Shown here: piece by piece, positions 1 to 43,553 of the stretch | How the letters are laid out: each line of letters starts with the position of its first letter | How positions within the stretch are numbered: position 1 is the stretch's first letter | Virus record (IMG/VR): IMGVR_UViG_3300031669_000003 | Coordinates: 1 to 64,000 of that record | From: a virus | Direction: 5' to 3' (one strand) | Length of the DNA: 64,000 bases | Made by a program: the position numbers and the translations under genes | The notes under the pieces: model-generated | The model's database searches: none | What the model was told of the DNA's origin: nothing | The model's input: only the letters and a program-made list of their open reading frames with translations

Positions 1-1
1 G

Positions 2-136: not shown

Positions 137-143
137 GAATGAG

Positions 144-1769: not shown

Positions 1770-1770
1770 C

Positions 1771-1989: not shown

Positions 1990-1990
1990 C

Positions 1991-3325: not shown

Positions 3326-3356
3326 TGGTGCCCTGGGTTTCATGAGGTCGAGAGAG

Positions 3357-3959: not shown

Positions 3960-3969
3960 GGAAGGTGAG

Positions 3970-4176
3970 ATGAGCGATCCGTTGGTGGACTTCAAGGTGG
4001 TGAAGAGGACGGAGAGTTCGGTGGTTGTAGAGATCAATGGTTCTTTAATGGAGATTCCTGTATGCCGATCAACTTCGTCTTCACAAGAAACGACAAGTCC
4101 TTTATCAGCCGGGCCATCATATGGTTCGAGCAACGAAGGACTCAGAAAGAAAGACGCACTTCTCACGGCCTCCTGA
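3970..4176 (+). CDS. Small hypothetical protein overlapping the next gene
   Basis: 68 residues with a strong Shine-Dalgarno (GGAAGGTGAG) before ATG 3970. The first 31 residues look like a compact beta-rich peptide (F-K-V-V-K-R ... V-V-V-E-I-N-G). The last 37 residues overlap the 4062-4661 gene in another frame and are Ser/Thr-rich without clear structure, so the C-terminus may be an accident of overlap. No family recognised. Confidence 0.45.
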   Translation: MSDPLVDFKVVKRTESSVVVEINGSLMEIPVCRSTSSSQETTSPLSAGPSYGSSNEGLRKKDALLTAS

Positions 4177-5116: not shown

Positions 5117-5238
5117 AGCTCCCAGGATACGACGGCCCAAACCCTCCCGAGAAGATGAAGGACATCATCGCTTGGGAGAAGGCTCTTGCCGAACTGATGA
5201 AGAAGATCACATTCGTGAAGGATGGAGAGGGGTCATGA
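5113..5238 (+). CDS. 41-residue hypothetical peptide
   Basis: ATG 5113 overlaps the TGA of the previous gene, and its own TGA (5236-5238) overlaps the next ATG (5235), so three genes are chained by ATGA junctions. The peptide starts M-K-L-P-G-Y-D-G-P-N-P-P-E-K and continues as an amphipathic helix with W, A and L. The chain of couplings is the main evidence that it is real. No family recognised. Confidence 0.55.
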   Translation: MKLPGYDGPNPPEKMKDIIAWEKALAELMKKITFVKDGEGS

Positions 5239-5462
5239 GCATCTATAGCGCCTTCCTCGATGAGGTGATCAAGATCGCGGAGGGAAAGCCCAAGCCGGGC
5301 CAGCAGGGCCTCCTGGGCACGTCCACGGTACCCGATCCGAAGAAGGCATCCGGCCAAACGGCGGCGATCGTAGGTCCTAAGGGAGGCCTGAACTTCACCA
5401 AGGATCTCGGGAAGATGCTGACCGCGAACCGTGCCGGGAAGCGCATCATGTGGGGAGGGTAG
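5235..5462 (+). CDS. Small protein with Y-S-A-F-L-D-E-V-I-K-I N-terminus
   Basis: 75 residues from ATG 5235, with AGAGGGG upstream and start-stop overlap with the 41-residue gene. An alternative upstream start at 5172 would lie inside that gene. The first 15 residues form a helix matching the start of the 4658 gene. The rest is Gly/Pro/Lys-rich with a short conserved-looking end (A-G-K-R-I-M-W-G-G). Likely a minor virion or assembly protein; no family recognised. Confidence 0.6.
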   Translation: MSIYSAFLDEVIKIAEGKPKPGQQGLLGTSTVPDPKKASGQTAAIVGPKGGLNFTKDLGKMLTANRAGKRIMWGG

Positions 5463-5490
5463 TTGCTTCTCAAACTCTATGGCTTATAAC
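5463..5490 (+). promoter_or_regulatory. Candidate sigma-70-like promoter
   Basis: TTGCTT (5463-5468) and TATAAC (5485-5490) are separated by 16 bases in the 53-base gap before the gene at 5516. This is one of the few gaps in the + strand cluster and would drive the lysine-rich protein and the RNA polymerase gene. It is a motif match only. Confidence 0.35.
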
Positions 5491-5515
5491 TTCTTAGGGA
5501 AAGACCAGGTGGGTC

Positions 5516-6076
5516 ATGAAGAATAACAGGACGAAACTGAACGAATCCCAGACGAAGATCCTGTTGAGGAACCTCGGAGATCCGAGCCTGATCGCAGGCA
5601 AACTCGACATCTTCACCAGTGAGGAGACCCATTCGATCATCGAACTTGATATCTCCAAGAAGACGCACATTCTGGTCTACGAGACGCTGAAAAATGACCA
5701 CGAGAAATTTGAGGTGCTCCAGGAGAAGGATTTCGGCGGGACCGGATCGTACGTCAGAATCCGCTACGTAAGGAAGGGGATATGGACGCTCGACTTACCT
5801 CCCGATTTGGCGAATCCTTCCTCGATGAAATCCTCCCGATCTTCGAAAAAGAAGGAGGAGGAGAAGAAGGAAGGGGAAGCTCCGATCATAGGGTTCGGAG
5901 CTGCGGTTTCGAAGCCGAAGCCTGCCAAGAAGAAGATACCAGCCAAGAAAAAGAAGGCTCCAGTCAAGAAGAAAGCCCCGGCGAAACGGAAGGCTCCGGC
6001 CAAGAAAAAGTCGCCCGTAAGAAAGAAAAAGGCGGTTCCTCGGAAACGCTCCTCGCGATCCTCGGGAGCGCGATAG
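5516..6076 (+). CDS. Protein with histone H1-like lysine/alanine/proline tail
   Basis: 186 residues. Residues 1-100 form a compact mixed domain (S-L-I-A-G-K-L-D-I-F-T-S-E-E and later V-R-I-R-Y-V-R-K-G). From about residue 105 it becomes a highly basic tail built of P-A-K-K-K-type repeats like eukaryotic and bacterial H1-like tails, suited to DNA or RNA binding. The tail's DNA (5782-6076) is also read in another frame by the next gene. It sits directly before the RNA polymerase, so a nucleic-acid-linked role (packaged DNA, transcription) is plausible but unproven. Confidence 0.6.
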   Translation: MKNNRTKLNESQTKILLRNLGDPSLIAGKLDIFTSEETHSIIELDISKKTHILVYETLKNDHEKFEVLQEKDFGGTGSYVRIRYVRKGIWTLDLPPDLANPSSMKSSRSSKKKEEEKKEGEAPIIGFGAAVSKPKPAKKKIPAKKKKAPVKKKAPAKRKAPAKKKSPVRKKKAVPRKRSSRSSGAR

Positions 6077-6330
6077 GGGCCGGTGCAGGAGGCGCCTCCC
6101 ACATATCGAAATTCCTGAAGCAGCGCAAAGAGTGGCTCTCCGGCAGAAAAGATCCTCCCATCCATCCGAAGAGCAAGAAACTCTGGGACGTTCTCAGGAA
6201 ACCCTCCTTCGTCACGCCTCATATGATCAGGAGGATCGGCGGTGGGGCTGCGCTCGGTTACATTACCGCAGCGAGTCTCCCAGGAATCGCCAGGCGCCTT
6301 CGTGTGCTTCTCAAGAAGGACCGTAAATGA
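5782..6330 (+). CDS. Hypothetical protein with glycine-rich membrane-like segment, overlapping the lysine-rich gene
   Basis: 182 residues from ATG 5782, preceded by AGGAAGGGG. The start (F-G-E-S-F-L-D-E-I-L-P-I-F) resembles the D-E-L-x-K-I N-termini of the genes at 4658 and 5235. Residues 30-85 are an Glu/Gly/Ser-rich stretch that is the out-of-frame reading of the lysine repeats of the 5516 gene. The last 95 residues look like a genuine domain: a hydrophobic Gly/Ala segment (L-L-A-I-L-G-S-A-I-G-A-G-A), a basic helix, and a second Gly-rich hydrophobic stretch. ATGA overlap with the RNA polymerase start supports translation of this frame. Confidence 0.55.
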   Translation: MDARLTSRFGESFLDEILPIFEKEGGGEEGRGSSDHRVRSCGFEAEACQEEDTSQEKEGSSQEESPGETEGSGQEKVARKKEKGGSSETLLAILGSAIGAGAGGASHISKFLKQRKEWLSGRKDPPIHPKSKKLWDVLRKPSFVTPHMIRRIGGGAALGYITAASLPGIARRLRVLLKKDRK

Positions 6331-9300
6331 TTGACGCCGATCTCCAGTTTCCAGAGATGATGAAGCGCGTCGAGCGGACGATTGCCTCAGCATTCCCGAT
6401 CGAATCGACCGGTCACATTATGGAGTTGAGCAATCTCGAGTGGAAGGGATTCGGTAACGATGTGCGTGACAACATCACCCTTCACAAAGACTACAAGATG
6501 AAGGACAAGACCCTTTCGACCGATCTGGTGGGCGACATCACCATCCGCAAGAAAGGTGGAAAAGTGGTGGATAAGAAGACCGGGGCGGTCCTGCTCACGC
6601 TTCCCCATATCACCAACCGAGCCTCCTATATCGTCAACGGGAATGAGGTCCAGACCATCAATCAGCTTAGGCTCAGACCCGGGCCGTATACGCGGTTCAC
6701 CTCCGATGACAATACCGAGACCTTCATCAATGCGGCCGGTGGCGGATACAAGATCATCTTTGACAGGCAGACCGGTGTCATTCGGATCAAGTCGGGCACG
6801 ACGTTCGTCTACATCTACCCCATCATGAAAGCCCTTGGCGTGTCTGACCAGGCGATGCAGAGTGCTTGGGGATCGGTGATCTTCGAGGCGAACAAGAAGT
6901 ATGACAAGCGTGAGCACGTCGAGAAACTCTTCAGGACGATGCGGAGATTCAGCGCCGTTCCGGATAATCAGGTCGAGGTGGATCAGGCCGTGGAGGACTT
7001 CTTCAACTCGAAGAGGATCGATCCGAAGATCTCCAAGATCACATTGAAAAAGGAATTCACGAGTATCACCCCGGAATTGCTCCTGGACGCGAGCCGCAAG
7101 GCCGTGGATCTGGCCAAAGGGACGGCCGAGATGGACGACACGGAATCACTGGCTTTCAAATCGATTCACTCGGTCGAGGACTTCGTCCCGGAGAAACTCG
7201 AGAGAGCCGTGCCGTCGATTCGTCGCCAGATCCAGATAAAGATGGATCGGATTCCTGTCGTCGAAACATTGATTTCGCCCAGGATGTTCTCGAATCCGGT
7301 GATCGACTGGTTCATGACCAGCGAGTTTACCAGGTATTCGGATCAGCAGAACCCCATCGACATGGCCGGGACCTCCCAGCTCACGACCACCATGGGCGAG
7401 GGAGGTATCCGGAGTATGCACGCCGTCACGGACCAGGTGCGAACGGTTCACCCATCCCAGATGGGTTTCCTGGATCCGCTGCACACTCCTGAAGGCGGAA
7501 AGATTGGCGTCACCGGGCACCTGACCATCGGAGCTCAGAAGAGAGGCGACTCCCTCTTCTTGACCGTTCTCAACGCGAGGACGGGAGCACAGACTCAGAA
7601 GAGCGCGCAGGAGCTCGAGGACGCAACGGTGGCCTTCAATGATCAGTACGTTCTCGACACTGGAAAGCCTAAACCCATCGCTTCCCTGATCGCGGCCAGG
7701 AAGGCGGGCAAGATCCAGATGGTCCCATCCGGAGAAGCGGACTTCATCTTTAAGGATCCCCGTTCTTTCTTCTCGGTCGCATCCAACGCGATTCCGTTCC
7801 TGCACAACAACAGTTCGAACCGCGGGCAGATGGCCGACCGTCATATCGAGCAGGCCGTTCCGCTTGTCAACCCCGACAGACCCCTGGTCCAGGCTCGGTT
7901 CAAGGGCGACATGGGGTACGACGATTACTTCGGCAAATACTCGAATGTAGCCGCTCCGATGGCTGGCACCGTGACCAAGGTCACGGACGATCTGATCAGG
8001 ATCAAAGATCAGTCGGACCAAACCCACGACGTCAGATTGCACCACAACTATCCTCTCAATGGGGGCTCGTTCCTCACGGACAGGCCTGTCGTGGTCACGG
8101 GGGATCGTGTCACTAAAGGCCAAGTCATCGCAGAGAACAATTTCACCAAGGATGGATCTCTGGCGCTCGGTAAGAATCTCCGCACGGCCCTGATCCCTTA
8201 CAAGGGTCAGAATTTCGAGGACGGGGTGGTCATTTCCCAGGATGCCGCTACGAAGCTCACCTCGGAACATAAGCATGAGATGCGTCTCGATCTGACGAAG
8301 GACATTAAGATCGGACTCGACATCTGGCTGGCGCACTATCCGGACGAGGTGTCGAAGGTGAACCGGGGGAAGTACGACACGTCCGGAGTCATTCGTAAGG
8401 GCTCGAGAATCGATCGTGGCGATGTCCTGATCCCTGCCGTGGAGCAAGTCCAGATTCATGAAGAATATGATTACGCGAGGCTTCACAAGGCCCTGCGTCG
8501 ACCCTGGCGCAATGTGGCGGTCACGTGGGAGTCGGATTATCCAGGAACCGTGGTGGACGTGGTGAGGACGGCTAAGTTCATCAAGGTGTTCATCAGGACG
8601 GAGGAGGCTGCCCAGGTAGGCGACAAGTTATGCTATACCCCGGATCATGAGGTTTTGACGCTCAGCGGATGGAAGCCTATTGCGGAGGTGACTCTCGACG
8701 ATTGGGTAGCGGTTCTGGATGCAGATGGATTCCTTAGATACGAGCAGCCATACGAACTCCATTCTTACCTGATAGACGAGAACATCTACTCGCTGGAATC
8801 CCAACAGGTATCTCTGTCCGTGACTACGAATCACAATCTCTATGTCCGTAAGAGAGGGAATAAGGAGCACGAACTTATTCCCGCCGCTGAGTGCGTTGGA
8901 AAGCGCGTTCGACATAAAAAAGATGCGAAATGGGATGGTTCTTCCGTCGAAAAGATCGTGATCCCTGGATACACGGTGAAGTGCGGGCAGGGTGGCGCGG
9001 CGACGAAAATGATAGAGCCCTCCGAATTCGAGTCACGGGACTTTCTTCGTTTCTTGGGATTCTTCATTGCTGAGGGGAACCGGTGCGCCCCGAGGCGCGG
9101 CTCTTACAGAGTTTCGCTATCTCAGAATGACGGACCGAACAAGGTGTGGATCAAGCGGGTCCTCAAGAGACTCGGTCTCGGTTGTTCTCTGCCGAAAGGT
9201 AAGGTGGAGTTCTGTCACAGGGGAATCTGGGAATGGCTTGATTGTGTGGGTGATGGCGCTGGGAACAAACATATTCCGAAGTTGATCCTCGGTTTTAGCA

Positions 9301-12300
9301 GTGACCTTCTATTGTGCCTCTGGGAAGGACTGCATAGGGGAGATGGATCAATAAGCAAGTCTGGCTCTGAGATCTACTATACATCGAGCCGTCAACTCGC
9401 GGATCAGGTTCAAGAATTGGCTTTGAAGGTCGGCTGGTCTGGAAATATCTACACCAGATTCGAGGCTGGATGGGAGACGATCATTAAAGGGAAGAAGACT
9501 AAAGCCAACTTTGATGGTCTTGTGGTTCGGATCGTGAAATCGAAGAACCAACCCATGATCAACCACGGGCACGCACGGACGCAGAACGGACAGGTGGAGG
9601 AATTGCGGCGATATTGTGGTCCGGTCCACTGTGTCACGGTTCCAGGCCACATACTATATACGAGGAGAAATGGAAAGCCGGTCTGGTGCGGTAATTCCAA
9701 TAGGGCAGGCGGCAAGGGCATCATCGTGAATATCCTTCCGGACAACGAGATGCTCAGGGATGAGTCGGGACAACCTCTCGACGTCCTGTTCAATCCCGGA
9801 GGCGTTGCCGGTCGAGTTAACCCGGGCCAGATCTTCGAGGGTGCAGCCGGAAAGGTGGCGCTGAAGACGGGCAAGCAGTACCTCGTCGACAACTTCTCGG
9901 AGCAGTCGTCCCTGGAGATGGTCAAGAAAAATCTCAAAGACGCCGGTATGAGCGACCTCGAGAGCGTCACAGATCCCACGTCCAATAATACGGTCAAGGA
10001 CGTGTTCGTCGGGAACGTGCATTTCGTGAAGTTGCAGCACCAGGTGAGTAAGAAGTTCTCGGCTCGGGGGATCGGAGGATACACGGCCGATGAGCAGCCC
10101 TCTAAGGTCAGCGGTGAGTCGGCACAGAACATCGGTTCAGGAGAGATCTATGCTCTACTGGCGTCAGGATCTCTTCATTTTTTGAAGGATGCTGCGACCC
10201 TGAAGTCGCAGTCGAATCCTGAATACTGGAGAGCCATGCAACTCGGGCTTCCCACTCCTCCTCCGAAACAACCTTTCATTCTCGACAAGTTCATCACGAG
10301 TCTCGAGGGCGCAGGGATCAACATGAAGCGGGAAGGAAACTCGCTGAAGGTCCTTCCCATGACGGACAAGGAAACTGAGTCGAGATCGAAGGGAGAGATC
10401 AAGAGTCCGGATGTCGTGAGAGCCTCGGACCTTCGTCCGGAACGAGGGGGTCTGTTCGACAAGGCCGTGACGGGAGGTATAGGCGGGACATCATGGTCCC
10501 ACATCGATCTCGAGACGCCGGTCCCTAACCCTCTCATGGAGAAGTCGGTGATCTCTGTTCTGGGCCTCAAGCCGGCCGAGTACAGGGCAATCATGGCTGG
10601 GAATCTGTTCGTGACCCAGGACGGAAAATTCACAGCGGATCACCAGAAGGGACAGCCTGCCGGCGTCGGTCTGAAAATCCTTCTGGACAATGTGAACGTG
10701 AACCGAGAGCTCGAGAAGACCATCGTCGCCATTCGTGTGGCCAGGGGTGCGCGTCTCAACGAACTAAACCTCCGTAGACGCTATCTTCAGGCACTCAAGG
10801 CCTCTAAGATGACGCCGTCCGAGGCGTACATTCAGTCGAAAATCCCGGTCATTCCTCCGGCGTTCCGGCCGATCTATCCTCTTCCTGACGGGTCGCTGAA
10901 CGTGGCCGATCCGAACCATAGCTACCGCGAGATCCTCATGATCAACAACCAGCTGAAGGATCTCGCAGCCAAAGGAGTAGACAACAAGAACCTGGCACCA
11001 ATCCGTGCGGATCTATTCGCAGCGGTCCAGGGTATGACCGGGATGATGGAGCCCCTTACCAGATCGAAGAACTTCAGGGGATTCGTGTCCACGATCAAGG
11101 GAAGGGTGAATAAGCGGGGCCTGTTCCAAGGTCGTGTGGTGAAGCGACCACAGGATCTGTCCGGCCGCTCCACCATCATCCCGGACCCACAGCTCGGAAT
11201 CGACGAGATGGGGATGCCCGCGGAGATGGGCCTTGTCATCTACAAACCGTTCATTGTGCGCCGACTCGTCGGTCTCGGGTACAAGCCGACCGAGGCCCTC
11301 GATCTCATCGACAAGAAAGACGAGAAGGCCCTCGAGGCACTCAGGCAGGAGGCGAAGGAGAGACCGGCCTATCTGAATCGAGCTCCCACGCTTCACAAAT
11401 TCGGCATCATGCCTTTCCATCCGAAGATCATGGAAGGGAAAGCGATCAGGATCAATCCGTTGATCGTCCGGGGGTACAACGCCGACTTTGACGGGGACGA
11501 TCAGATAGGCATAGTGTTATTGCACCTCGACCAGGAATCTCTTACCTTCGTAGAAGAGCAGTACGGTAAGAGATTCCTGGAGGACAGAGATGTGACGGCT
11601 CGTTACAAATGCTGCGTTCCGGCGTTTCAATCCGGGCGCTTGATCATGGTAGATCTCGCGGATTTCCCTGCCCTTCAGAAATTCAGAACTACTGAAGGGC
11701 GTAACGGCCCGATCGATTGGCATAAGATTCCGAAGGGCACCAGCGTAATCGCCTATAATGAGTCCTCTGGTTCGCTGAAGTGGGCCAGAGCCACGGTCTG
11801 GTCCAAACACTATGACCGGCTTGTCGAGATCGTCGAACTTCAGAGTGGGAGACAGATCATCACCGATGACGATCCTCGCGCTGTGTACGGTATAGTCGCA
11901 GGATCGCTCGATTTTGTGAGGGCAACTCCAAAGGAGGCGGTTGAGACAGGGATTTTCGTACCCAGAATGGCGACAGCGGAGGTGCCGGATCTTGAACCAG
12001 AGTACATTCCGGCCCGAAATATCAAAGGAGCCAGATTACACCTGAAGGAGCGCATCGATCTCACAGGAGATTTTGGATATTTACTCGGATCCTTGGCTGG
12101 GGATGGCTGGCCGGTTTTTGTCCATGATGATGCCCGCGGCGTATCACTCGCTGGGATAGCAGACGAGGTAGTGGCCCGATGTGACCGGGCGGTAGACTCG
12201 CTGTTCGATGGCGCGGCGCCTGAATGTAGCCCGGTGGATGGTAAGGAATCCTACGGCGAGAGTCGTCGAGTGACTTGGACTTCGGTCGAGCTTGGCTGGT

Positions 12301-14933
12301 TCATACACGGCCTGATCGGGAGGGGGGCGGAGAACAAGCATCTCCCTCCTTGGGTGTTCTCTTGTCGTAAGGAATTCAGATTTTCCGTGTTCGCCGGTCT
12401 CATGGATACGGACGGCGGAGTCGGAATTTCCAAGGCAAAGAAAAAGCCGCAACTCATGGCAAGCTATTCCTCTGTCAGTCTGCGGCTTGTAAGGGAGGTC
12501 AGGCTCCTCGCGGCTTCTTTGGGAATCGATAGCCGGATCACACCATCTAAGACCCCAGCCGGAGAGCCCTTTTGGGTGCTTAGTTTTTCAAATATCGGAA
12601 TCAAGGAATGGGGAGGATCTGGTTTACAAAATCCGGACAAGATCAGAAAGATCTCCGAGACACCTGTCGATCCAAATTCCAATGTGGCTGCCCGATTTGA
12701 TATCGTTCCGATCTCGTCCGGCCTTGCCCACGAGATCCGTAAGGTGATCAAGGCTCCAAGGGATGCTTCCAAGGAAAGGAAATCGATCTATGTTGTTCTT
12801 AGTAAGGCGATCACCGTTGGATCTATGAGTCGCCAGATAGCTGTAAAGATACTCAGCATGTTCAAGACGTTCGATCATCCAGATTACGAGAGGTGGAAGA
12901 CGATTGTTAGATCCGGCGTCAAGTGGGATCGAGTCGTTTCGTTTGAAAGAACCGGTATCAAGGAAACTGGGTATGACTTGACTGTTCCCGGGTTTGAGAC
13001 CTTTGTCTCGATCGATGGACTCGTTTTGTCGAACACCATGGGCGTTCACGTTCCTGTGAGCGAAGAGGCCAGGATCGAGGCCCTGTCGAAGATGCCGTCA
13101 AAGCAGCTCTTTTCCGTCACGGATGACTCGGTGATTCACACGCCGACCAAGGAATACGTCCTTGGTCTCTACCTCATGACGAAACCTATTGGGCCTAAGG
13201 TGACGGCCAAGAATGTTTCCGAGATGCTCGATCGGTTCAACAAGAAAGAGATCCTGGTGAACCAGACTGTGAGCATCCTCGGGAAGATCTGGACGCCTGG
13301 ACAGGCTCTCGTGAACGATGTGTTTCCTTCCGGGATGAGGCCCGGCAACGTCATTGTCAATAAGAGCAAGATGTCGGCCCTGATCGAGGAAGCTGCGAGG
13401 ACCTACCCTAAGGAGGCCGGGAGCGTCATCACGAAACTCAAGGACCTCGGTGCGTTCTACGTCACGGAGATTGGGTACTCGGTCGGTCTCAAGGATCTCG
13501 AATTCAATTACGTGAAGAGGGACAAGATTCTCGCGGATGCGGCCAAGAAGACGCCCAGAATAGGATTCGAGGCGGCCTACGGACAGGCCCTCGGTCGTCT
13601 CGACAATCAGGTGAAAGGAATGAAGGGGAATCGATTCGTTCTCGGGAACATCGAGTCGGGAGCCTTCGGTAAGGCCGACATGGTGACGCAGATGATCGCC
13701 ACACCGGTGGCGGTGCGTGATCATAAAAATGAACTCATTGAAGTTCCAATCGCCAAGAGCTTCGTAGAGGGGCACAGCATCACGTCATACTGGTCCACGA
13801 TTCCAGGCGCACGGAAGGGCCTCATCGAGAAGGGCCTCGGTACCGCCGAGACGGGAGCGCTGAGTAAGAGGCTCATCAACACGACGATCGAGCAGATCAT
13901 TTCGATTCAGGACTGTGGAACGCTCGAAGGCATCATGATGCCCATCGAATCGAGGGAAGCGGTCGACCGTGTGGTCTCCGACGGGCGAAACGCCGGCAAG
14001 ATATTGACTCAGTCCCTTGCCAGGCAGATGAAGGCCGCAGGGAAGTCACAGGTCAAGGTCAGATCTCCGTTAACTTGCCGCGCTCAGAGAGGAATCTGCG
14101 CGAAGTGTTTTGGTCTGCTCGAGAACGGTCAGTTCCCTCCCATCGGGTATCACGTAGGTGTCCTCGCGGGTCAGGCCATAAGCGAGCCTATGACCCAACT
14201 GATGCTTAAATCTTTTCATACCGGCGGTGCCATGAGCCGGAAGATGGTCGGTTTCGATCGGATCCGCCAGATCATGGAGATGCCCGAGAATGTTCCCGGG
14301 AAAGCTACGATCGCCATGACGACCGGGACCGTGGATAGCATCACTCAGGCTGCCGGTGGCGGCTGGATCGTGAAGATAGATGACGTGGATCACTTCATCC
14401 CGAAAGAGCGTGGACTGGGGGTTAAGCGCGGAGATAGAGTTCTCGCCGGTAAGACGATATCGAAGACCGGAGTCGTGAGGCCTCAGGATCTACTCTCGGC
14501 TACGAACGACATCAACGTGGTTCGTGGCCGTCTGATCAAGGACCTCGAAAATGAGTTCAGCCAGGGAGGCGTCAGGATCAAGCGTAAACTCTTCGAGACG
14601 GTAGTGAAGCCCATGACCGATAGGTCCGAGGTGCTTGATGCCGGGGATGGAGAGAAGCACGAGATCTTCAAGGGGGATATCATTCCGACGAATCTGATCG
14701 ATGAGACCAACAAGAAGATCAAACAGACCGGCGGCCGGCTGATCCAGTTCAAGCCGTCACTTCTGTCGATTAGGGTCGCCCCTTATCACAGCGGGGATTT
14801 CGTTGGTAAATTGATGTTCGAGCGTCCACATGAGACAATCTCTGCGGCGCCTCGGATAGGGGCCAAGTCGGATATCGCTACGGGTCATCCGATTACGCAG
14901 TATGTTTTCGGCCAGCTCGGAAAGAAGAAATGA
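6327..14933 (+). CDS. Fused multisubunit-type RNA polymerase beta-beta' chain carrying two inteins
   Basis: 2,868 residues; 2,001 after removing two inteins (769-1123, 1725-2236). Beta landmarks: Y-I-V-N-G-N-E-V near 101, H-P-S-Q-M-G-F and H-T-P-E-G-G near 365-385, G-K-N-L-R-T-A and Y-K-G-Q-N-F-E-D-G near 615-630, G-D-K-L|S-N-R at intein 1. Beta' landmarks: H-I-D-L-E-T-P-V near 1395, D-L-S-G-R-S near 1605, L-N-R-A-P-T-L-H-K near 1683, catalytic N-A-D-F-D-G-D at 1718-1724, a four-Cys zinc site (C2530, C2584, C2591, C2594) and trigger-loop region T-Q-L-M-L-K-S-F-H-T-G-G-A. The N-terminal beta' zinc finger is missing. ATGA couplings join it to both neighbours in the late cluster. It should catalyse DNA-templated RNA synthesis; alpha and omega were not found. 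Confidence 0.93.
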   Translation: MIDADLQFPEMMKRVERTIASAFPIESTGHIMELSNLEWKGFGNDVRDNITLHKDYKMKDKTLSTDLVGDITIRKKGGKVVDKKTGAVLLTLPHITNRASYIVNGNEVQTINQLRLRPGPYTRFTSDDNTETFINAAGGGYKIIFDRQTGVIRIKSGTTFVYIYPIMKALGVSDQAMQSAWGSVIFEANKKYDKREHVEKLFRTMRRFSAVPDNQVEVDQAVEDFFNSKRIDPKISKITLKKEFTSITPELLLDASRKAVDLAKGTAEMDDTESLAFKSIHSVEDFVPEKLERAVPSIRRQIQIKMDRIPVVETLISPRMFSNPVIDWFMTSEFTRYSDQQNPIDMAGTSQLTTTMGEGGIRSMHAVTDQVRTVHPSQMGFLDPLHTPEGGKIGVTGHLTIGAQKRGDSLFLTVLNARTGAQTQKSAQELEDATVAFNDQYVLDTGKPKPIASLIAARKAGKIQMVPSGEADFIFKDPRSFFSVASNAIPFLHNNSSNRGQMADRHIEQAVPLVNPDRPLVQARFKGDMGYDDYFGKYSNVAAPMAGTVTKVTDDLIRIKDQSDQTHDVRLHHNYPLNGGSFLTDRPVVVTGDRVTKGQVIAENNFTKDGSLALGKNLRTALIPYKGQNFEDGVVISQDAATKLTSEHKHEMRLDLTKDIKIGLDIWLAHYPDEVSKVNRGKYDTSGVIRKGSRIDRGDVLIPAVEQVQIHEEYDYARLHKALRRPWRNVAVTWESDYPGTVVDVVRTAKFIKVFIRTEEAAQVGDKLCYTPDHEVLTLSGWKPIAEVTLDDWVAVLDADGFLRYEQPYELHSYLIDENIYSLESQQVSLSVTTNHNLYVRKRGNKEHELIPAAECVGKRVRHKKDAKWDGSSVEKIVIPGYTVKCGQGGAATKMIEPSEFESRDFLRFLGFFIAEGNRCAPRRGSYRVSLSQNDGPNKVWIKRVLKRLGLGCSLPKGKVEFCHRGIWEWLDCVGDGAGNKHIPKLILGFSSDLLLCLWEGLHRGDGSISKSGSEIYYTSSRQLADQVQELALKVGWSGNIYTRFEAGWETIIKGKKTKANFDGLVVRIVKSKNQPMINHGHARTQNGQVEELRRYCGPVHCVTVPGHILYTRRNGKPVWCGNSNRAGGKGIIVNILPDNEMLRDESGQPLDVLFNPGGVAGRVNPGQIFEGAAGKVALKTGKQYLVDNFSEQSSLEMVKKNLKDAGMSDLESVTDPTSNNTVKDVFVGNVHFVKLQHQVSKKFSARGIGGYTADEQPSKVSGESAQNIGSGEIYALLASGSLHFLKDAATLKSQSNPEYWRAMQLGLPTPPPKQPFILDKFITSLEGAGINMKREGNSLKVLPMTDKETESRSKGEIKSPDVVRASDLRPERGGLFDKAVTGGIGGTSWSHIDLETPVPNPLMEKSVISVLGLKPAEYRAIMAGNLFVTQDGKFTADHQKGQPAGVGLKILLDNVNVNRELEKTIVAIRVARGARLNELNLRRRYLQALKASKMTPSEAYIQSKIPVIPPAFRPIYPLPDGSLNVADPNHSYREILMINNQLKDLAAKGVDNKNLAPIRADLFAAVQGMTGMMEPLTRSKNFRGFVSTIKGRVNKRGLFQGRVVKRPQDLSGRSTIIPDPQLGIDEMGMPAEMGLVIYKPFIVRRLVGLGYKPTEALDLIDKKDEKALEALRQEAKERPAYLNRAPTLHKFGIMPFHPKIMEGKAIRINPLIVRGYNADFDGDDQIGIVLLHLDQESLTFVEEQYGKRFLEDRDVTARYKCCVPAFQSGRLIMVDLADFPALQKFRTTEGRNGPIDWHKIPKGTSVIAYNESSGSLKWARATVWSKHYDRLVEIVELQSGRQIITDDDPRAVYGIVAGSLDFVRATPKEAVETGIFVPRMATAEVPDLEPEYIPARNIKGARLHLKERIDLTGDFGYLLGSLAGDGWPVFVHDDARGVSLAGIADEVVARCDRAVDSLFDGAAPECSPVDGKESYGESRRVTWTSVELGWFIHGLIGRGAENKHLPPWVFSCRKEFRFSVFAGLMDTDGGVGISKAKKKPQLMASYSSVSLRLVREVRLLAASLGIDSRITPSKTPAGEPFWVLSFSNIGIKEWGGSGLQNPDKIRKISETPVDPNSNVAARFDIVPISSGLAHEIRKVIKAPRDASKERKSIYVVLSKAITVGSMSRQIAVKILSMFKTFDHPDYERWKTIVRSGVKWDRVVSFERTGIKETGYDLTVPGFETFVSIDGLVLSNTMGVHVPVSEEARIEALSKMPSKQLFSVTDDSVIHTPTKEYVLGLYLMTKPIGPKVTAKNVSEMLDRFNKKEILVNQTVSILGKIWTPGQALVNDVFPSGMRPGNVIVNKSKMSALIEEAARTYPKEAGSVITKLKDLGAFYVTEIGYSVGLKDLEFNYVKRDKILADAAKKTPRIGFEAAYGQALGRLDNQVKGMKGNRFVLGNIESGAFGKADMVTQMIATPVAVRDHKNELIEVPIAKSFVEGHSITSYWSTIPGARKGLIEKGLGTAETGALSKRLINTTIEQIISIQDCGTLEGIMMPIESREAVDRVVSDGRNAGKILTQSLARQMKAAGKSQVKVRSPLTCRAQRGICAKCFGLLENGQFPPIGYHVGVLAGQAISEPMTQLMLKSFHTGGAMSRKMVGFDRIRQIMEMPENVPGKATIAMTTGTVDSITQAAGGGWIVKIDDVDHFIPKERGLGVKRGDRVLAGKTISKTGVVRPQDLLSATNDINVVRGRLIKDLENEFSQGGVRIKRKLFETVVKPMTDRSEVLDAGDGEKHEIFKGDIIPTNLIDETNKKIKQTGGRLIQFKPSLLSIRVAPYHSGDFVGKLMFERPHETISAAPRIGAKSDIATGHPITQYVFGQLGKKK
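8631..9695 (+). other. Intein 1 in RNA polymerase (beta conserved G-D-K-L site)
   Basis: 355 residues (769-1123 of the host protein). It starts with Cys (C-Y-T-P-D-H-E-V-L-T), has block B T-T-N-H, two LAGLIDADG-like helices (L-G-F-F-I-A-E-G and L-H-R-G-D-G) and ends in W-C-G-N followed by Ser as first C-extein residue. The penultimate His is replaced by Gly, which some active inteins tolerate. Joining gives G-D-K-L-S-N-R-A-G-G-K-G, matching the conserved beta segment, so the borders are well supported. Confidence 0.9.
11499..13034 (+). other. Intein 2 in RNA polymerase, inside the NADFDGD catalytic loop, with atypical termini
   Basis: 512 residues (1725-2236). Removing it joins N-A-D-F-D-G-D to T-M-G-V-H-V-P, exactly the conserved beta' sequence. 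Hint-like features: G-T-S-V-I-A-Y-N near 70 residues in, block-F-like G-Y-D-L-T-V-P, C-terminal V-L-S-N|T. LAGLIDADG-like motifs are L-A-G-D-G and L-M-D-T-D-G. It begins with Asp instead of Cys/Ser/Ala, block B reads T-D-D-D instead of T-x-x-H, and the penultimate residue is Ser instead of His. The nearest cysteines (a C-C pair) are 37-38 residues inside. The N-terminal border is inferred from the extein only. Confidence 0.8.
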
Positions 14934-16243
14934 TCGCAGTCGGAGAAGTCACGCAGTCCGTCCCGACGAAGCGGGCGTACTTCGTTAATTTCTACGACGG
15001 GGTCGAGAAACTGTGCTCCATCGGAAACATCGGGATCGACATACCTCTGCGGGAAGGCGACAAGGTTCTATGCGCTTTCTCTGATACACGGGTGAACAGC
15101 GGGTGGGTGATCCTCTGCCGGATCGACACGCCGAGACTCCCTAAGCCGGGCGAGGAGAATCTCGAGAAGAGCATCGAGCAACAACTCGCCGAGGAGCAGG
15201 AGAACCTGATCAAGACGGCAGTTGGCGGCTACGAGCCCGACGGCATTCCGGACTGGGGAGGCGGTTGGGACGAACCCCCGACCTACGGCGAGATCCTGGC
15301 CAAGAGTCGGACATCCCAAGGATTCTCGAAGGTGATGTCCGATGGGTCCATGATCAACTTCGTGGATCAGATCCTCCACATCGTCCTGAGCAAGCACAAT
15401 AAGGCGGCGATCTTCAGGATGAAGCAACTTATTCTCGACGTGATTCCTGGATTTTTCCTGAACGTCACTCCTAAGGACCAGGTCGACGTGCAGCCAGAGG
15501 CTCCTACCGAGGCGACATCTCCGAACAAGAAGAAAGTCATAATCGAATCCGGGATCGCTCCTGATCCAGAAGACAACCTCATCGATTTCTTCATGGAAGC
15601 CGGAATCCTGAAGCAGATGGACGACCCTGGCTACGGGAAGAGCGTCGATACACAGGGCAAGAAGATCAAGCGAGGAGGTCGGGTAAGGATCAGGGATTTC
15701 GCCATCTTCGAGTCCGACATCGAGAACAAGGAGTTGCGACTCACGTTTCAGATCCCAGGAACGGCTCCGACAGATCTGTACCAGATCAGGGCTAACACGA
15801 GCGAGTTCGTGATCTCGTGGGGAAAACAATTCTTCGCGATCAGGGACTCCGGAATCATGATGAAGGGGGATCTTCTTGGCTTCGCCGGACCCTGGGCCAT
15901 GTGGAGTAAGATGACTACCGAACCCCTTATGCACAATACGGAGCTCTCCGAAGACCAGATGCAGCCGATCTGCGAATGGAAAGAGGATGCCCCGGCTGGC
16001 GGGATTAAGTTCCTCAAAAGTGTATACTTTGGACAGAACGAGGAACCTGCGGTTCTCCAGTCGTTTATCGACAATGTGTATACGAAGGAGATGGATCTCA
16101 TTCGGGACCACTTCCACTCGTATTCGCCGCCTGCGGTCGTCACTGGCACGTCGCCGGCACTCCAGGCGGGATTACTGGTGCTCGATGCTCTTCTGGATCC
16201 GCCGCTGGTGTCAGATATTCTGAGCGGACAGATCACGATCTGA
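14930..16243 (+). CDS. Baseplate/spike-like OB-fold structural protein
   Basis: 437 residues; ATG 14930 overlaps the RNA polymerase stop (ATGA). Residues 1-65 look like a small beta-barrel (V-G-E-V-T-Q-S ... L-R-E-G-D-K-V-L-C-A-F ... S-G-W-V-I-L), reminiscent of the OB domain of gpV/gp5-type baseplate spike proteins. A long middle region with acidic and Pro-rich linkers follows, then beta-rich segments. A role in the tail tip or baseplate is inferred from this and from the late cluster. Confidence 0.45.
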   Translation: MIAVGEVTQSVPTKRAYFVNFYDGVEKLCSIGNIGIDIPLREGDKVLCAFSDTRVNSGWVILCRIDTPRLPKPGEENLEKSIEQQLAEEQENLIKTAVGGYEPDGIPDWGGGWDEPPTYGEILAKSRTSQGFSKVMSDGSMINFVDQILHIVLSKHNKAAIFRMKQLILDVIPGFFLNVTPKDQVDVQPEAPTEATSPNKKKVIIESGIAPDPEDNLIDFFMEAGILKQMDDPGYGKSVDTQGKKIKRGGRVRIRDFAIFESDIENKELRLTFQIPGTAPTDLYQIRANTSEFVISWGKQFFAIRDSGIMMKGDLLGFAGPWAMWSKMTTEPLMHNTELSEDQMQPICEWKEDAPAGGIKFLKSVYFGQNEEPAVLQSFIDNVYTKEMDLIRDHFHSYSPPAVVTGTSPALQAGLLVLDALLDPPLVSDILSGQITI

Positions 16244-16255
16244 CGGAGGAAGAAG

Positions 16256-18055: not shown

Positions 18056-19130
18056 CAAACTCAAGACGTTCACCAGAGCCGGACTTTTAGCGAAGTACGG
18101 GATCTCTTTTGACACTCTGGGCACGTTGCTCGGCTCTGATCTCCTCGATGGGGAGTTCGAGCATAAAGCGGGCAAGAGCCTGTTTGCGGTGTCTCCTCAG
18201 GATGATTTCGTTTTTCGCTGCTCCAGGCTTCAGGTTGACAGCTTCCACACTATCGGACTGACTTTCCCTTTCCACCGTTTTCTCGTCTACCGGTTCATCA
18301 ACACGCCCGTGGACGAAGTCTACGAGGAGATCTTCCAGCTCGGCCTGCTCCCGAAGATAGACGCCTTCACGAAGGACGAGATGAAGCGTCTCCATAAGAA
18401 GATCATCGGAGCCGCTCCGAGAGAACTGGCGAAGGCGTTCAAGGATCTGAGGGAACCGAAGAAGGACGAGAAGAAGAAATACGATCTCTTTCTGAAGACC
18501 TTGAACATCCAGTTGTACTATGACAAGCCGTCGCTCGTTGACGATCTAATGTTCTACATACCCATGCGGGCGGAGCTCGAGGTCATCCTTACGACGATCT
18601 GTACCGCGGAGGAGGCGACTGAGGCGCTCTCCAAAATGATCGACGTGTCGATCCCGCTCTCGGCTATCACCACCTACAGGATCCTTCTTTACGCTTCCCA
18701 TAACGTCAATCCGAGGCACATAGATATGTATTACAACCTGATCCTTCCGAGCGAGAGACTCGTAAAACGCGAGGCGATGGGTCTCACCCTCACTGAGTTC
18801 TGTGTCAAGAAGGGGGCCGATCGTGTGGTGGACACGAAGACTGTCCTTGAGGTCATCATGAGGCACGCCCAGAAGGAGGTCATGCGTCTCCATCAGATCA
18901 AGACCCCTGAAGGGCACCAGGCTGCCAGGGCCGCTCTCGATCGGCTCATCAAGGCTCACGACAGACTCGAGGCCATGGGCGCCACGAGCGAGGAGAGCCG
19001 CGAGAATCTGGCGAAGACGTTCAAGAAGTTCAGGATCAAGAAGGTCACGAACGCGGAGGCTGGACCCATTTTCACCATACACGACATCCAGAAGGACGGC
19101 GTCGGTGAGGTGGAGTCCGGTGGCAAATGA
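18039..19130 (+). CDS. Hypothetical helical protein upstream of terminase
   Basis: 363 residues; overlaps the previous gene by 17 bases, and its stop overlaps the terminase start (ATGA at 19127). The protein is mostly helical, basic, with an N-terminal segment that could be a helix-turn-helix (F-T-R-A-G-L-L-A-K-Y-G-I-S-F) and a Lys-rich C-terminus. Coupling to terL makes a small-terminase or packaging-adaptor role conceivable, but it is larger than usual small terminases and no family signature is seen. Confidence 0.6.
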   Translation: MVKRNSKLKTFTRAGLLAKYGISFDTLGTLLGSDLLDGEFEHKAGKSLFAVSPQDDFVFRCSRLQVDSFHTIGLTFPFHRFLVYRFINTPVDEVYEEIFQLGLLPKIDAFTKDEMKRLHKKIIGAAPRELAKAFKDLREPKKDEKKKYDLFLKTLNIQLYYDKPSLVDDLMFYIPMRAELEVILTTICTAEEATEALSKMIDVSIPLSAITTYRILLYASHNVNPRHIDMYYNLILPSERLVKREAMGLTLTEFCVKKGADRVVDTKTVLEVIMRHAQKEVMRLHQIKTPEGHQAARAALDRLIKAHDRLEAMGATSEESRENLAKTFKKFRIKKVTNAEAGPIFTIHDIQKDGVGEVESGGK

Positions 19131-20395
19131 GTTTTCAAGTCAAATATCATGATCCGTCGACGACGGGTGTCAGGTTCAGGCCTAACAAATACTCCCTGCT
19201 TCCGGAGGCGGCTTCGCTCATCGGATGCGGTCTTGTGGATGTGGACGAGGATGCGATTGACGAAGTCACCCAAGAGACGATGGAGAGCGACGATTCCCAG
19301 ATCGAAGGATGGATCTCCAATTTCGCTGAAGCTCTCGTCACCGTAAATCGAGAGCCTCTCTCCCTCAAGGATCGCGACTACCTTCGTATGATCTACGATG
19401 TCAGGAGCGAGTACCCGAACGGATCGAGGAACACGGTGATCGTTTCCGGCCGACAGGTCGAGAAATCGACCACCATTGCCGCGAAGGTTATGACCTTGTG
19501 CATCCTCCACCCGTCGTTCTCGGCTCTGGTAGTCGAGCCCCGGGTAGATCAGATCAAGGTCATCAGCCAGCAGCGCTTCGACCCGATGGCCCATGATTCC
19601 AAGCCCCTTCGCCAGGGATGGCTCTCAAGCAAAAACGTCTGGCAGGTAGGAATGAAGGGGTTCAACAACGGGTCCATCGTGAACTTCAAGTCCTGTTATT
19701 ACTCTGCCGACCCCTCCCGTGGGATCACGGCCGGATTCCTCGCAATCGACGAGTTGCAGGACATCATCTCGGACAACATTCCGATCCTCGAGGAGTGCCA
19801 GTCCCACCTTCAGATGGAGCCGGACCGCGTCTTCAATCTCTATACCGGGACCCCGAAGACGACATCAAACACGCTCAACCAGCACTGGAGGGATACCTGC
19901 CAATTCGAGTGGCTCGTCAAGTGCCAGTCGTGCACCAACTATAACTACCTCGACGAGAAGGTCATCGGAAAGCACTTCTACATCTGCACTCGATGCGGGA
20001 GGCAGATTTACCCGACTAAGCACGGGCAGTGGATTGCCATGAAGCCGAGCAAGCTCGACTACAGATGGGGGTTCAGGATCTCCCAGCTGATGGTCCCGTT
20101 CATGGAGCACGCTAAGATCCTGGAGAAAATGGAGAATCCGAACATTCCTCATCGGGTATTCATGAATGAGGTGGTGGGACTCTCCTACGACGAGGGACAG
20201 CTGCTCCTGACGGAAGCCGATATATTGAAGCACTGTGAGCCCAGGCCCCAGGATACGCCCCAGAACATTGCACAGAGGACCGATATATTCATGTGCGCCG
20301 GGGTCGATCATGGGACCGGCGACTATGCCGTTTCCGGCATGGACGACGGCGGAACCCGTGGGATGAAGGCTCGGGCCAAGCCGTCGTTCACGTGA
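19127..20395 (+). CDS. terL: Large terminase, ATPase part (reading stops at an internal UGA)
   Basis: 422 residues. The ATPase domain shows a Walker A-like V-S-G-R-Q-V-E-K-S-T-T near residue 107-115 (Glu where Gly is usual), Walker B F-L-A-I-D-E-L near 205, and a coupling-type Y-T-G-T-P segment. A zinc-ribbon-like insert follows (C-Q-S-C ... C-T-R-C). The nuclease domain begins at C-A-G-V-D-H-G-T-G-D-Y, giving the first catalytic Asp, and then the frame stops at TGA 20393-20395. The same frame stays open to 20956 and holds the rest of the nuclease, so this product alone would lack nuclease activity. Confidence 0.85.
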   Translation: MSFQVKYHDPSTTGVRFRPNKYSLLPEAASLIGCGLVDVDEDAIDEVTQETMESDDSQIEGWISNFAEALVTVNREPLSLKDRDYLRMIYDVRSEYPNGSRNTVIVSGRQVEKSTTIAAKVMTLCILHPSFSALVVEPRVDQIKVISQQRFDPMAHDSKPLRQGWLSSKNVWQVGMKGFNNGSIVNFKSCYYSADPSRGITAGFLAIDELQDIISDNIPILEECQSHLQMEPDRVFNLYTGTPKTTSNTLNQHWRDTCQFEWLVKCQSCTNYNYLDEKVIGKHFYICTRCGRQIYPTKHGQWIAMKPSKLDYRWGFRISQLMVPFMEHAKILEKMENPNIPHRVFMNEVVGLSYDEGQLLLTEADILKHCEPRPQDTPQNIAQRTDIFMCAGVDHGTGDYAVSGMDDGGTRGMKARAKPSFT

Positions 20396-20956
20396 CTGGC
20401 TTTCGGCGGTTTTGGAGCCGACGATCGGTTCCGAATTCTCAAGATGGAAAAGTTCCATGGTGAGATGGCCAACCTGGCACGTCAGCCGGAGTATATCGAC
20501 GAATACGTCAGGAAGTACGGCGCTAAGTGGGTGATGTCAGACTACGGGTTCGGCGCCCACACGAACGCCAGACTCGTTGCGGATCACGGGTGGACACGGT
20601 CTGATGTCGAGGGAACGAGGGATCCCCTCCTGATGGAATGCGAATACTCTGGGATACAGAAGGTTCCGATCAGATGGCACAGCGGAGCCTGGAGATATAT
20701 TATCAATCGTAACTTTGCCATCGAGCATACGGTTGACGGGATCAAAAGGGGGACGATCTGGTTCTTTCGTGAAGCCGAAATGAAGGAATTCATTGACGAC
20801 TTCACCTCCATGTATACCGAGTACGACTTCAGGAGCAAGCACGTAAGATACGACCACGTTCTCCCGGATGACTGTTTCCAGGCGGTTCTATACTGCTATC
20901 TGGCCGCCTTGCAGCATCGTGGGATGCTCGTCCCCACAATGGTTCCGAACATTTGA
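20396..20956 (+). CDS. terL: Large terminase, C-terminal nuclease part, in frame after the UGA
   Basis: The frame of terL continues after TGA with L-A-F-G-G-F-G-A-D-D-R-F-R-I-L, which reads as the second strand of the RNase H fold, then W-V-M-S-D-Y-G-F-G with the second catalytic Asp, and Y-D-H-V-L-P-D-D-C-F-Q-A with the third. If translated alone, the first good ATG is 20444, which would lose strand two. The natural reading is one protein with Trp or another residue at the UGA (TGG to TGA is one change). Sequencing error, inactivating mutation and readthrough are all possible. Confidence 0.7.
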   Translation: MAFGGFGADDRFRILKMEKFHGEMANLARQPEYIDEYVRKYGAKWVMSDYGFGAHTNARLVADHGWTRSDVEGTRDPLLMECEYSGIQKVPIRWHSGAWRYIINRNFAIEHTVDGIKRGTIWFFREAEMKEFIDDFTSMYTEYDFRSKHVRYDHVLPDDCFQAVLYCYLAALQHRGMLVPTMVPNI

Positions 20957-33154: not shown

Positions 33155-34339
33155 ATGGACTTCACTCCCGAGAGGTTCAACGCTCTCTTCGGTGAGGCCG
33201 TCCGCAGGGGAGGTGAGTACCTCGAGAAGGTCGCCGACGCCGGGGATCTCTACGTGCAGAAGAAGCTCCGCGAGAACTCCTTCGCCCGGAAGATCATCCA
33301 GCCGAAGACCGTCACCGAGCGCGAGTGCCAGCGGTCCCTCACCGAGGACTCCCTCGAGTACGTGGACGACATCGAGCCGGATTCGATCGCCATGCACATC
33401 AACTGGAGAGGGGAGCCGGAGAAGTCGTGGATCATGGGAAAGCGTTACGCGATCCCGTTCCACACCATCTCCTCCGACATCTTCCAGAAGACGGAATCCG
33501 AGCTCCGGGCGTACCGGATGCCCATCACCAAGATCATCGAGCAGAACATCATCAGGGACATCCAGGAGCAGGAGGACGTGACGTTCATGCAGCACGTCCT
33601 CGCTGCGCTGTTCTTGGCCACCCGTGCCCGCTACAACACTCTCGTGCGGCGCGGCGTCCTTTCCACCTCCAGGAACTTCGCCAACGAGACCGAGTTGGCG
33701 TGCTTCCTCTTCACCCAGAACAAGGCCTACCAGGCATCGCCTTGGGCTGCGGCCATCCCCACTTCGGCCCTCAACCGGGCCAAGGGTTTCCACAGCAACA
33801 TCCTGTTCTCGGACCAGTCCGAGTTCAATCGGATCGTGCTGCGTGACCTGAGCCAGGTCTGCTCCGCCCGCGAGCTCGAGCTCAAGACCTTCCTCATGCA
33901 CAAGTACGACTTCGACGCGACCATCGCGTGGTCGCTGAACGAGGCCGGCCTCGAGATCACCAGCGAGATCGTGCGGGACGGATTCAAGTACACCACGATC
34001 GGCGGTTTCACCTACGTGACGACCGTCCGCGACAACCAGCAGCTGGTGCAGCCCGGCCAGATCTTCGGTTTCCCGTCGCCCCAGTTCCTCGGGAAGTTCC
34101 TCATCCTCGACAACACCAAGTTCTTCATCAACCGGCGCGGCCGGTTCATCGAGATGGAGGCTTGGGAGGAGATCGGCGCAGGCTTCGGGAACATCTACGG
34201 CGTCTGCTGCATCATCCTTAAGGGGGCCGAGATGACCATCCCGGTCGCTTTCCAGAACCCGTCCGATGTGGTCGGCGTCACGGGATCGCTCCGGATCATC
34301 AACGACCATACGCTCACCTCGATCCCGGCTCCGGTGTAG
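33155..34339 (+). CDS. Major capsid protein (HK97-like)
   Basis: 394 residues with AAGGAGA before ATG 33155. Features match HK97-fold phage capsid proteins: an N-terminal helical arm, S-F-A-R-K-I-I-Q-P (arm region), a long spine helix in the middle (Q-N-I-I-R-D-I-Q-E-Q-E-D-V), and a beta-rich end (F-G-F-P-S-P-Q-F-L-G-K-F and V-P-I-like M-T-I-P-V-A-F-Q-N-P). Nearly all codons end in C or G, more than in neighbouring genes, and a strong terminator follows, both fitting the most highly expressed gene. Confidence 0.8.
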   Translation: MDFTPERFNALFGEAVRRGGEYLEKVADAGDLYVQKKLRENSFARKIIQPKTVTERECQRSLTEDSLEYVDDIEPDSIAMHINWRGEPEKSWIMGKRYAIPFHTISSDIFQKTESELRAYRMPITKIIEQNIIRDIQEQEDVTFMQHVLAALFLATRARYNTLVRRGVLSTSRNFANETELACFLFTQNKAYQASPWAAAIPTSALNRAKGFHSNILFSDQSEFNRIVLRDLSQVCSARELELKTFLMHKYDFDATIAWSLNEAGLEITSEIVRDGFKYTTIGGFTYVTTVRDNQQLVQPGQIFGFPSPQFLGKFLILDNTKFFINRRGRFIEMEAWEEIGAGFGNIYGVCCIILKGAEMTIPVAFQNPSDVVGVTGSLRIINDHTLTSIPAPV

Positions 34340-42719: not shown

Positions 42720-42755
42720 AGAGCCCGGCGATTAGTCGTCGGGCTCTTCTTTTTT
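42720..42755 (+). terminator. Rho-independent terminator at the convergence of the two gene blocks
   Basis: AGAGCCCGGCGA (42720-42731), loop TTAG, TCGTCGGGCTCT (42736-42747) with one G-U pair, then TCTTTTTT on the + strand. It ends the late transcript. The right arm and loop overlap the last codons and stop of the sigma gene on the opposite strand. Confidence 0.85.
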
Positions 42756-43553
42756 GAGTGCGGCTGGAGGGATGTGACCTTCTCTGATGAGAACGTAGAG
42801 TTTCCTGAGGGCCGCGCTTTCGATCTGTCGTATCCGTTCCCTGGACTTTCCGTAGTGTTCCGAGATCTCCTTCAAGGTCTCTTCGTCGCACGAGATCCCG
42901 TAGCGCCGGCGTATGATATCCTCCTCGAGAGGCTTGAGTCTGTGGAGGACACCTGCGATCTTCTCCTTGATTTCCGCATTCGCTGATATGTCTATCGGAT
43001 CTCCATCGGTTGATGGAATGTCATCGCATATGTTGTGAGCGATCATGGTTCTCTTCTCGTTGTATTTCTTGAAGATCCTGAGAAGGGATACTGACCACCC
43101 AAGGAATTCGTAGACCTCATGTTCGGTCGGAGTTCGTCCCGTGTCCTCCTCGATAGCTTTCTTGGCAAGTTTGAAATCGTTCTTGAGGTTCGAGACAGAG
43201 GCCACTGTTTCCCTACTGAAGAAGTTAAGACCTTTCCTGATTTTAGAGTTGATCCACCAGACGGCGTACGTGGAGAACTTGAACCCGAGGCTGATGTTGA
43301 ATTTGTCGATGGCCGTGAACAGGCCTATCGTTCCGTCACTGATGAGGGACATGACCCTCGGGTCCTTGGGGCCACAGAACTTCATCACGCACGAGATAAC
43401 GAGTCTCATATTCCGTTCGATGAACTCGATCCGGGCTTCTTTATTTCCCTTTTTTATCAACCTCAGAAGTCTCTTCTCCTCCTGAGCCGATAAGGTTCCT
43501 TTGTTCTCGAACTTCTTATAGAACTCGTTGAATTCCTGCTGGTCATTAGCCAT
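42732..43553 (-). CDS. RNA polymerase sigma factor, sigma-70 family
   Basis: 273 residues. Region 2 is clear: R-N-M-R-L-V-I-S-C-V, then D-G-T-I-G-L-F-T-A-I-D-K-F and F-S-T-Y-A-V-W-W-I-N-S-K-I-R. Region 3 follows (G-R-T-P-T-E-H-E-V-Y-E-F), and region 4 ends with L-K-E-I-S-E-H-Y-G-K-S-R-E-R-I-R-Q-I-E, a -35-binding helix-turn-helix. It should direct core polymerase to phage promoters; the phage's own beta-beta' chain is the obvious partner, the host core the alternative. It is the last gene of the long - strand cluster and overlaps its upstream neighbour by 8 bases. Confidence 0.92.
   Translation of the reverse strand: MANDQQEFNEFYKKFENKGTLSAQEEKRLLRLIKKGNKEARIEFIERNMRLVISCVMKFCGPKDPRVMSLISDGTIGLFTAIDKFNISLGFKFSTYAVWWINSKIRKGLNFFSRETVASVSNLKNDFKLAKKAIEEDTGRTPTEHEVYEFLGWSVSLLRIFKKYNEKRTMIAHNICDDIPSTDGDPIDISANAEIKEKIAGVLHRLKPLEEDIIRRRYGISCDEETLKEISEHYGKSRERIRQIESAALRKLYVLIREGHIPPAALKKEEPDD

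Follow-up and report, generated by a model that had tools for sequence, protein, structure and literature searches.

The DNA analysed here, the window, comprises 64,000 nucleotides and corresponds to positions 1-64,000 of the 120,910-bp IMG/VR record IMGVR_UViG_3300031669_000003. One of its open frames, 2,868 amino acids long, encodes a fused β-β′ RNA polymerase (RNAP) with two inteins inside (Table 1). Removal of residues 769-1123 and 1725-2236 leaves a chain of exactly 2,001 amino acids, which reproduces the intein-free length given by the first-pass annotation. Along the ORF, the Pfam domains follow the order β then β′ (Rpb2_3, Rpb2_6, Rpb1_1, Rpb1_2, Rpb1_3, and Rpb1_5); intein and LAGLIDADG domains were also matched. 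The Rpb2_6 match (1.4e-41) falls into two halves around the first insert, and the Rpb1_1 and Rpb1_3 matches are both below their own Pfam cut-offs. The PDB sequence search matched bacterial β′ down to 4.7e-90. The earlier description of one ORF with β motifs followed by β′ motifs is thus confirmed: profile searches recognise cellular β and β′ domains, and the NADFDGD loop, the Cys site, and the trigger loop were all located.

Table 1. Coordinates of the RNAP gene, its parts, and associated genes in the window.
Feature	Position	Strand	Evidence
Fused β-β′ RNAP ORF, 2,868 aa, two inteins inside	6327..14933	+	Single open frame; Pfam and PDB matches
Extein 1: β N-terminus to basic loop VGDKL, aa 1-768	6327..8630	+	Rpb2_3, first half of Rpb2_6
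Intein 1, 355 aa, Cys1...GlyAsn, +1 Ser	8631..9695	+	Canonical ends read directly
Extein 2: remaining β barrel, β C-terminus, fusion linker, β′ clamp helices, β′ barrel to NADFDGD, aa 1124-1724	9696..11498	+	
β/β′ junction: GAGINMKRE (β end), short linker, β′ start up to RPERGG	10308..10434	+	Alignment with Salmonella and Omnitrophota
Catalytic Mg2+ loop NADFDGD	11478..11498	+	All three Asp of DxDxD kept in 76/76 rows
Intein 2 (HINT + LAGLIDADG, 512 aa), immediately behind NADFDGD	11499..13034	+	Pfam, AF2 model
Extein 3: β′ past the catalytic loop (bridge helix, Zn site, trigger loop, C-terminus)	13035..14930	+	
C-terminal β′ four-Cys zinc site (DCGT ... LTC-GIC-AKC)	13914..14108	+	Alignment
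Trigger loop (EPMTQLMLKSFHTGG)	14184..14228	+	Alignment with Salmonella
Function-unassigned ORF overlapping the RNAP stop (ATGA, 14930-14933)	14930..16243	+	Homologue only in L007
Conserved neighbour, 599 aa	16256..18055	+	Homologues downstream of RNAP in 53 loci
Terminase large subunit (TerL), in-frame TGA at 20393-20395	19127..20956	+	
Major-head-protein-like ORF, same gene cluster	33155..34339	+	phrog_2522, 1.2e-5
Phage sigma factor, 273 aa, regions 2, 3, and 4	42732..43553	-	Sigma70_r2 4.1e-10, r4 2.2e-14, r3 1.5e-4

Alignment of the phage chain with Salmonella β and β′ showed that β′ starts after the linker with SPDVVRASDLRPERGGLFD. The β′ N-terminal zinc finger, already noted as absent, is deleted, with about fifteen residues in its place. 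The phage chain also lacks the large insertion found in the trigger loop of the Salmonella enzyme, and the basic loop (GDK..GKG) is present in the intein-free chain. Conservation was assessed over 76 rows, namely 75 intein-free relatives and the spliced window protein. Each Asp of DxDxD and each of the two basic-loop lysines is kept in 76/76 rows; the four Cys of the C-terminal zinc site are kept in 71-72. The distance from the β end to GLFD is 51-52 residues in 58 of the 76 rows. Production of a separate β′ by internal initiation was considered and rejected, as the junction Met is kept in only 13 of the 76 rows.

A 36%-identical relative with both barrels (L009) was modelled with AF2 from 31 sequences (mean pLDDT 82, pTM 0.67). 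The predicted fold is that of bacterial RNAP: the best PDB fold matches are bacterial β′ chains (E down to 1e-52), and since only β′ chains are among the matches listed, the β barrel rests on the Rpb2 sequence matches. It is nearly certain that the ORF is a genuine phage single-chain RNAP. The enzyme would probably be catalytically active after splicing.

The ORFs from the RNAP to TerL overlap or almost touch; the RNAP and the terminase therefore probably share a transcript. The placement of the RNAP among virion genes, made in the first-pass annotation, was correct, with the terminase and a head-protein-like ORF in the same cluster (Table 1). The conserved 599-aa neighbour gave no identification by Pfam, PHROGs, PDB profile, or phage tblastn searches. 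The terminase gene is split in two by the in-frame TGA, and is a single ORF in the nearest relative. This may reflect recoding, a nonsense change, or an assembly error. A further ORF of 1,622 aa (25881-30749) has homologues among the structural proteins of phages Arash and D69, and contains stretches that match intein and endonuclease families; on these matches, it is another intein-bearing virion gene. Scans of positions 1-20000 found sigma-70 promoter-like sites only modestly above shuffles, mostly inside genes, and no clear excess of terminators over shuffles.

The minus strand carries the genes from 42.7 kb onwards, among them an intein-containing PolA, a helicase, RecA, UDG, RuvC, and an exonuclease. 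The intein-bearing family A DNA polymerase occupies window positions 60663-63935. Past the window, the record encodes a class II RNR and a DnaB-like helicase. A reverse transcriptase ORF (RVT_1, 6.3e-19) is also found there, at 79681-80733 of the record, and is possibly part of a diversity-generating element or a retron.

A phage sigma factor is encoded on the opposite strand (Table 1; its region 3 match is below the cut-off), and further along the 120,910-bp record a second, weaker sigma is located at about 91.8-92.5 kb. The Sigma70_r2 model matched 13 of 31 records, among them those of the nearest relative, Arash, and D69; for most marine relatives among these records, no sigma was found with this model. 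The use of sigma is perhaps not general, because most marine relatives have no such match. No α was found in the 31 records (13/14 controls were positive). The β′ clamp helices bind sigma region 2 in bacteria, and this region is retained and conserved in the phage RNAP family.

Intergenic stretches contain a repeated TGTGTCATAAGA, at most sites with an A-rich block 12-16 bases upstream. The TGTCATAAGA motif occurs four times in this record and four times in the nearest relative, always on the minus strand; the reversed-pattern control gave 0 occurrences. The sites are at 81583, 94687, 111563, 113227, and 115028 in this record, and at 4161, 19902, 31620, and 110857 in G001. In this record (81.6-115 kb) they are intergenic and upstream of minus-strand genes, and the late cluster has none. 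The bases after several sites could form a hairpin, as read from the sequence. RNAP-encoding jumbo phages have short conserved AT-rich motifs of the -10 type at their early operons (PMC7598289). The TGTCATAAGA motif might be the promoter motif of the fused RNAP; host RNAP with the phage sigma is an alternative user.

As an overall explanation, we consider it likely that an α-less single-chain RNAP is made late, packaged, injected, and used for early transcription from its own motif. The enzyme would be the phage's own DNA-dependent RNA polymerase, an α-less one-chain version of the bacterial β + β′ core. Once the two inteins were removed, the chain would fold into a two-barrel crab-claw core, which homology and the model of the relative support. 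The fusion linker presumably takes over the assembly role of α by tethering. Promoters would be found via a sigma factor at the retained clamp helices, which might be the phage sigma or a host sigma. Because the RNAP gene is tightly packed in one run with the terminase and head genes, it is probably expressed late. For an RNAP made at that stage, packaging, injection, and transcription of early genes from TGTCATAAGA would be the likeliest use.

Packaging itself, raised in the first-pass annotation, is plausible from the gene position. To our knowledge, the late-made phage RNAPs known so far all serve the next infection, yet a sigma gene near the replication genes fits de novo use. For these reasons packaging is judged about evenly balanced, with at most a slight lean in its favour; the co-encoded sigma is either neutral or argues for de novo use. 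The strongest competing account is that the fused RNAP and the opposite-strand phage sigma transcribe middle and late genes during infection, with nothing packaged. In its favour, a complete sigma gene adjoins the replication genes not only here but also in the nearest relative and the Arash/D69 group, and each record has a single RNAP, unlike the two-enzyme scheme of phiKZ-like phages. However, the RNAP gene is embedded in a terminase/head cluster, as is typical of late genes, and the promoter-like motif is confined to the 81-115 kb region outside the late cluster. Such a non-virion enzyme is quite conceivable, though somewhat short of probable.

The phage sigma could also redirect the host RNAP, leaving the fused RNAP sigma-free, as are the jumbo-phage enzymes. 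Jumbo phages without an RNAP use sigma in that way (PMC7598289), and in many relatives that carry the fused RNAP no sigma was detected. Nevertheless, the clamp-helix region has been retained, and sigma and the fused RNAP co-occur in two sub-lineages. This division of labour is unlikely, although it deserves consideration beside the preferred reading, in which sigma serves the fused RNAP.

Intein 1 separates the lysine pair of the β basic loop (VGDKL / SNRAGGKG), and among the relatives found, an insert at this site was seen only in the window protein. In the polymerase family there are six intein sites, at spliced positions of about 389, 645, 768, 938, 1368, and 1760. Intein 2 starts with Asp, not Cys/Ser, has TxxD in place of TxxH in block B, and ends in SerAsn followed by Thr. 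It thus departs from class 1, which has Cys/Ser at position 1, and also from class 3, which has the block F Cys of the WCT motif; YDLTV with an Asp is found there, at a position judged by eye. The AF2 model of intein 2 (pLDDT 79) has an intact HINT and endonuclease fold, and in the PDB it is matched best by the folds of TliVMA and other inteins.

The splicing of intein 2 is uncertain because the usual first nucleophile is absent, and restoration of the catalytic loop may be inefficient for the same reason. This copy of the RNAP might even be inactive, with intein 2 unable to splice and the catalytic loop left interrupted. Its Asp1 in place of Cys/Ser/Thr and the missing block-B His point in that direction, and class 1 inteins require the first nucleophile (PMC7664689). 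On the other hand, the intein of another phage (L037, 2291-3826) is 41% identical, starts with Gln1, and has the same block B; it shares the atypical features, and its open, full-length frame speaks for maintained function. The predicted fold of intein 2 is intact, as are the extein catalytic residues. An inactive copy is therefore improbable. In three distinct relatives (L019, L055, and L062), DFDGN precedes the intein, and the intein ends in Asp; the third catalytic Asp, absent before these inteins, is invariant in the intein-free enzymes (76/76). One highly speculative idea is that the RNAP is packaged as an inactive, intein-interrupted precursor. Its catalytic-Asp intein would splice without the known first nucleophiles, activation would be gated by splicing after injection, and the DFDGN relatives would regain their Asp by similar chemistry.

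The single-chain RNAP is widespread. Two conserved-region searches of IMG/VR supplied 80 of 124 and 80 of 514 confirmed relatives; patterns built from the raw ORF found no relatives, but the conserved-region alignments did. At least 514 IMG/VR loci encode a relative of the fused RNAP, although the search patterns may also catch other RNAPs. After repeats were removed by contig name, 131 loci were inspected, in 16 of which the RNAP ORF is cut by the contig end. One full-length RNAP ORF was found in 103 of the 115 uncut contigs (87 distinct proteins), which supports the full-length single chain reported earlier; nine loci are split, and three have a partial gene that does not touch the contig end. 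The one-ORF enzymes are mostly 2,018-2,200 aa, and up to 3,010 aa with inteins. Breaks occur inside β or β′, near spliced positions 494, 622-631, 680, and 1420-1455; none of the inspected loci is split at the β-β′ junction (about 973-1020). In L004 and L071, the β part is broken at the same spliced position (494/495). The gap of the broken β in Vibrio phage D181 (L004) contains a homing-endonuclease gene, an intron-like arrangement. The beta-barrel profile found one gene per record in 31/31 records. The suggestion that a full-length single chain is unusual was only partly right: one chain is the rule within this phage lineage, and such phage multi-subunit RNAPs were described in 2020 (PMC7481178).

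A phylogenetic tree of 74 sequences was reconstructed with FastTree from phage and bacterial sequences only. The window protein and L007 group together within a phage clade to which the Arash/D69 group also belongs; this clade is separate from bacterial rpoBC, bacterial fused rpoBC included. The nearest relative in the IMG/VR search shares 72% identity over extein 2, and carries homologues of 4062-4661, 5516-6076, 14930-16243, 16256-18055, 18039-19130, and TerL in the same order. Relatives, tree, and synteny thus support a phage origin. An assembly chimaera or contamination with a bacterial fused rpoBC, which does occur in bacteria (ORFs of about 2,500-2,700 aa in Omnitrophota-labelled contigs), can be dismissed as extremely improbable, given the separate phage clade, the identical gene order on an independent contig at 72% identity, the loss of zinc finger 1, which bacterial enzymes have, and the uniform base composition across the RNAP ORF.

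Several other loci were encountered in these searches. L005 and L006 (OR846602 and OR844998), deposited as Enterococcus/Staphylococcus phage clones, were dropped as split mReC relatives, as both fall among the bacterial sequences in the tree; they encode bacterial-like rpoBC and may be bacterial contamination. Phage-type RNAPs were found in contigs binned as bacterial genomes (L095 and L101, and also L096-L100); these are probably phage contigs that ended up in MAGs, and they may point to hosts. Bacterial contigs with labels such as Omnitrophota, TA06, and Vermiphilus carry fused rpoB-rpoC ORFs about 2,500-2,800 aa long (L107-L111, L114-L116, L118, L119, L122, L151, and L158).

Taken together, a widespread phage lineage runs a complete bacterial-type RNAP as one α-less chain, with sigma in some members. 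A one-gene bacterial-type polymerase of about 220 kDa could be expressed for structural work, and would test whether α is dispensable when β and β′ are tethered. The cultured relatives Arash and D69 make the virion-packaging question directly testable.

The fused RNAP was compared with several known systems. Like the RNAPs of phiKZ/AR9-type jumbo phages, it is α-less and putatively associated with a short AT-rich early-promoter motif; those enzymes, however, have several subunits in two sets, and no sigma factor (PMC7598289). The phiKZ arrangement, with β and β′ each split, differs from the one ORF and one RNAP per record found here. Fused rpoB-rpoC is known in Helicobacteraceae and Wolbachia (cited in PMC7483510). 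The head-to-tail β-β′ fusion is similar; however, the fused ORFs of bacteria have lengths of at least about 2,500 aa, and zinc finger 1 is kept in the aligned L110 and Salmonella. The phage enzyme lacks this finger and does not group with bacteria. Both barrels are also in one chain in crAss-like phi14:2 gp66 and P23-45 gp64/gp96 (PMC10770324), and P23-45 gp96 is a demonstrated virion RNAP (PMC10770324). These RNAPs are highly diverged and belong to a phage/QDE-1 clade (PMC10770324), whereas the window chain keeps the cellular domain set and aligns closely with bacterial β/β′. Enzymes of the crAss/P23-45/QDE-1 type are unrecognisable by cellular β/β′ profiles, which match strongly here.

Salmonella phage Arash (gp206/gp216) and Vibrio phages D69, D181, and D148 have RNAPs of the same family (25-31% identity). 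They share the fusion of β to the N-terminal half of β′ and the structural-gene neighbourhood, and Arash and D69 also encode sigma. In contrast to the window protein, their β′ is broken after the catalytic loop, and a separate gene (about 610 aa) encodes the C-terminal part; the catalytic loop is AADYDGD, and the trigger loop has diverged.

The fused RNAP most likely belongs to the mReC lineage of tailed phages, the multi-subunit-RNAP-encoding Caudovirales of Weinheimer and Aylward 2020 (PMC7481178). Shared features are an RNAP alignable with bacterial β and β′, the NADxDGD loop, a clade apart from cells, an origin in IMG/VR metagenomic contigs, and phage hallmark genes around the RNAP (here TerL and a head protein). 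As in mReC, cellular profiles recognise β and β′, here with Pfam/PDB in place of COG profiles, and the clade is separate from Bacteria in the 74-sequence tree. The mReC capsid family PF07068 (Gp23) was matched in 0/31 records, and the model matched no control either; the three named mReC exemplar contigs were not among the relatives' loci listed from IMG/VR. The mReC main text (PMC7481178) treats β and β′ subunits, mentions fusion only for crAss, and does not contain the word intein; the window RNAP has two inteins. Relative to that main text, the single-chain rule, the cultured relatives with a fused and then resplit RNAP, the co-encoded sigma, and the active-site inteins are new here.
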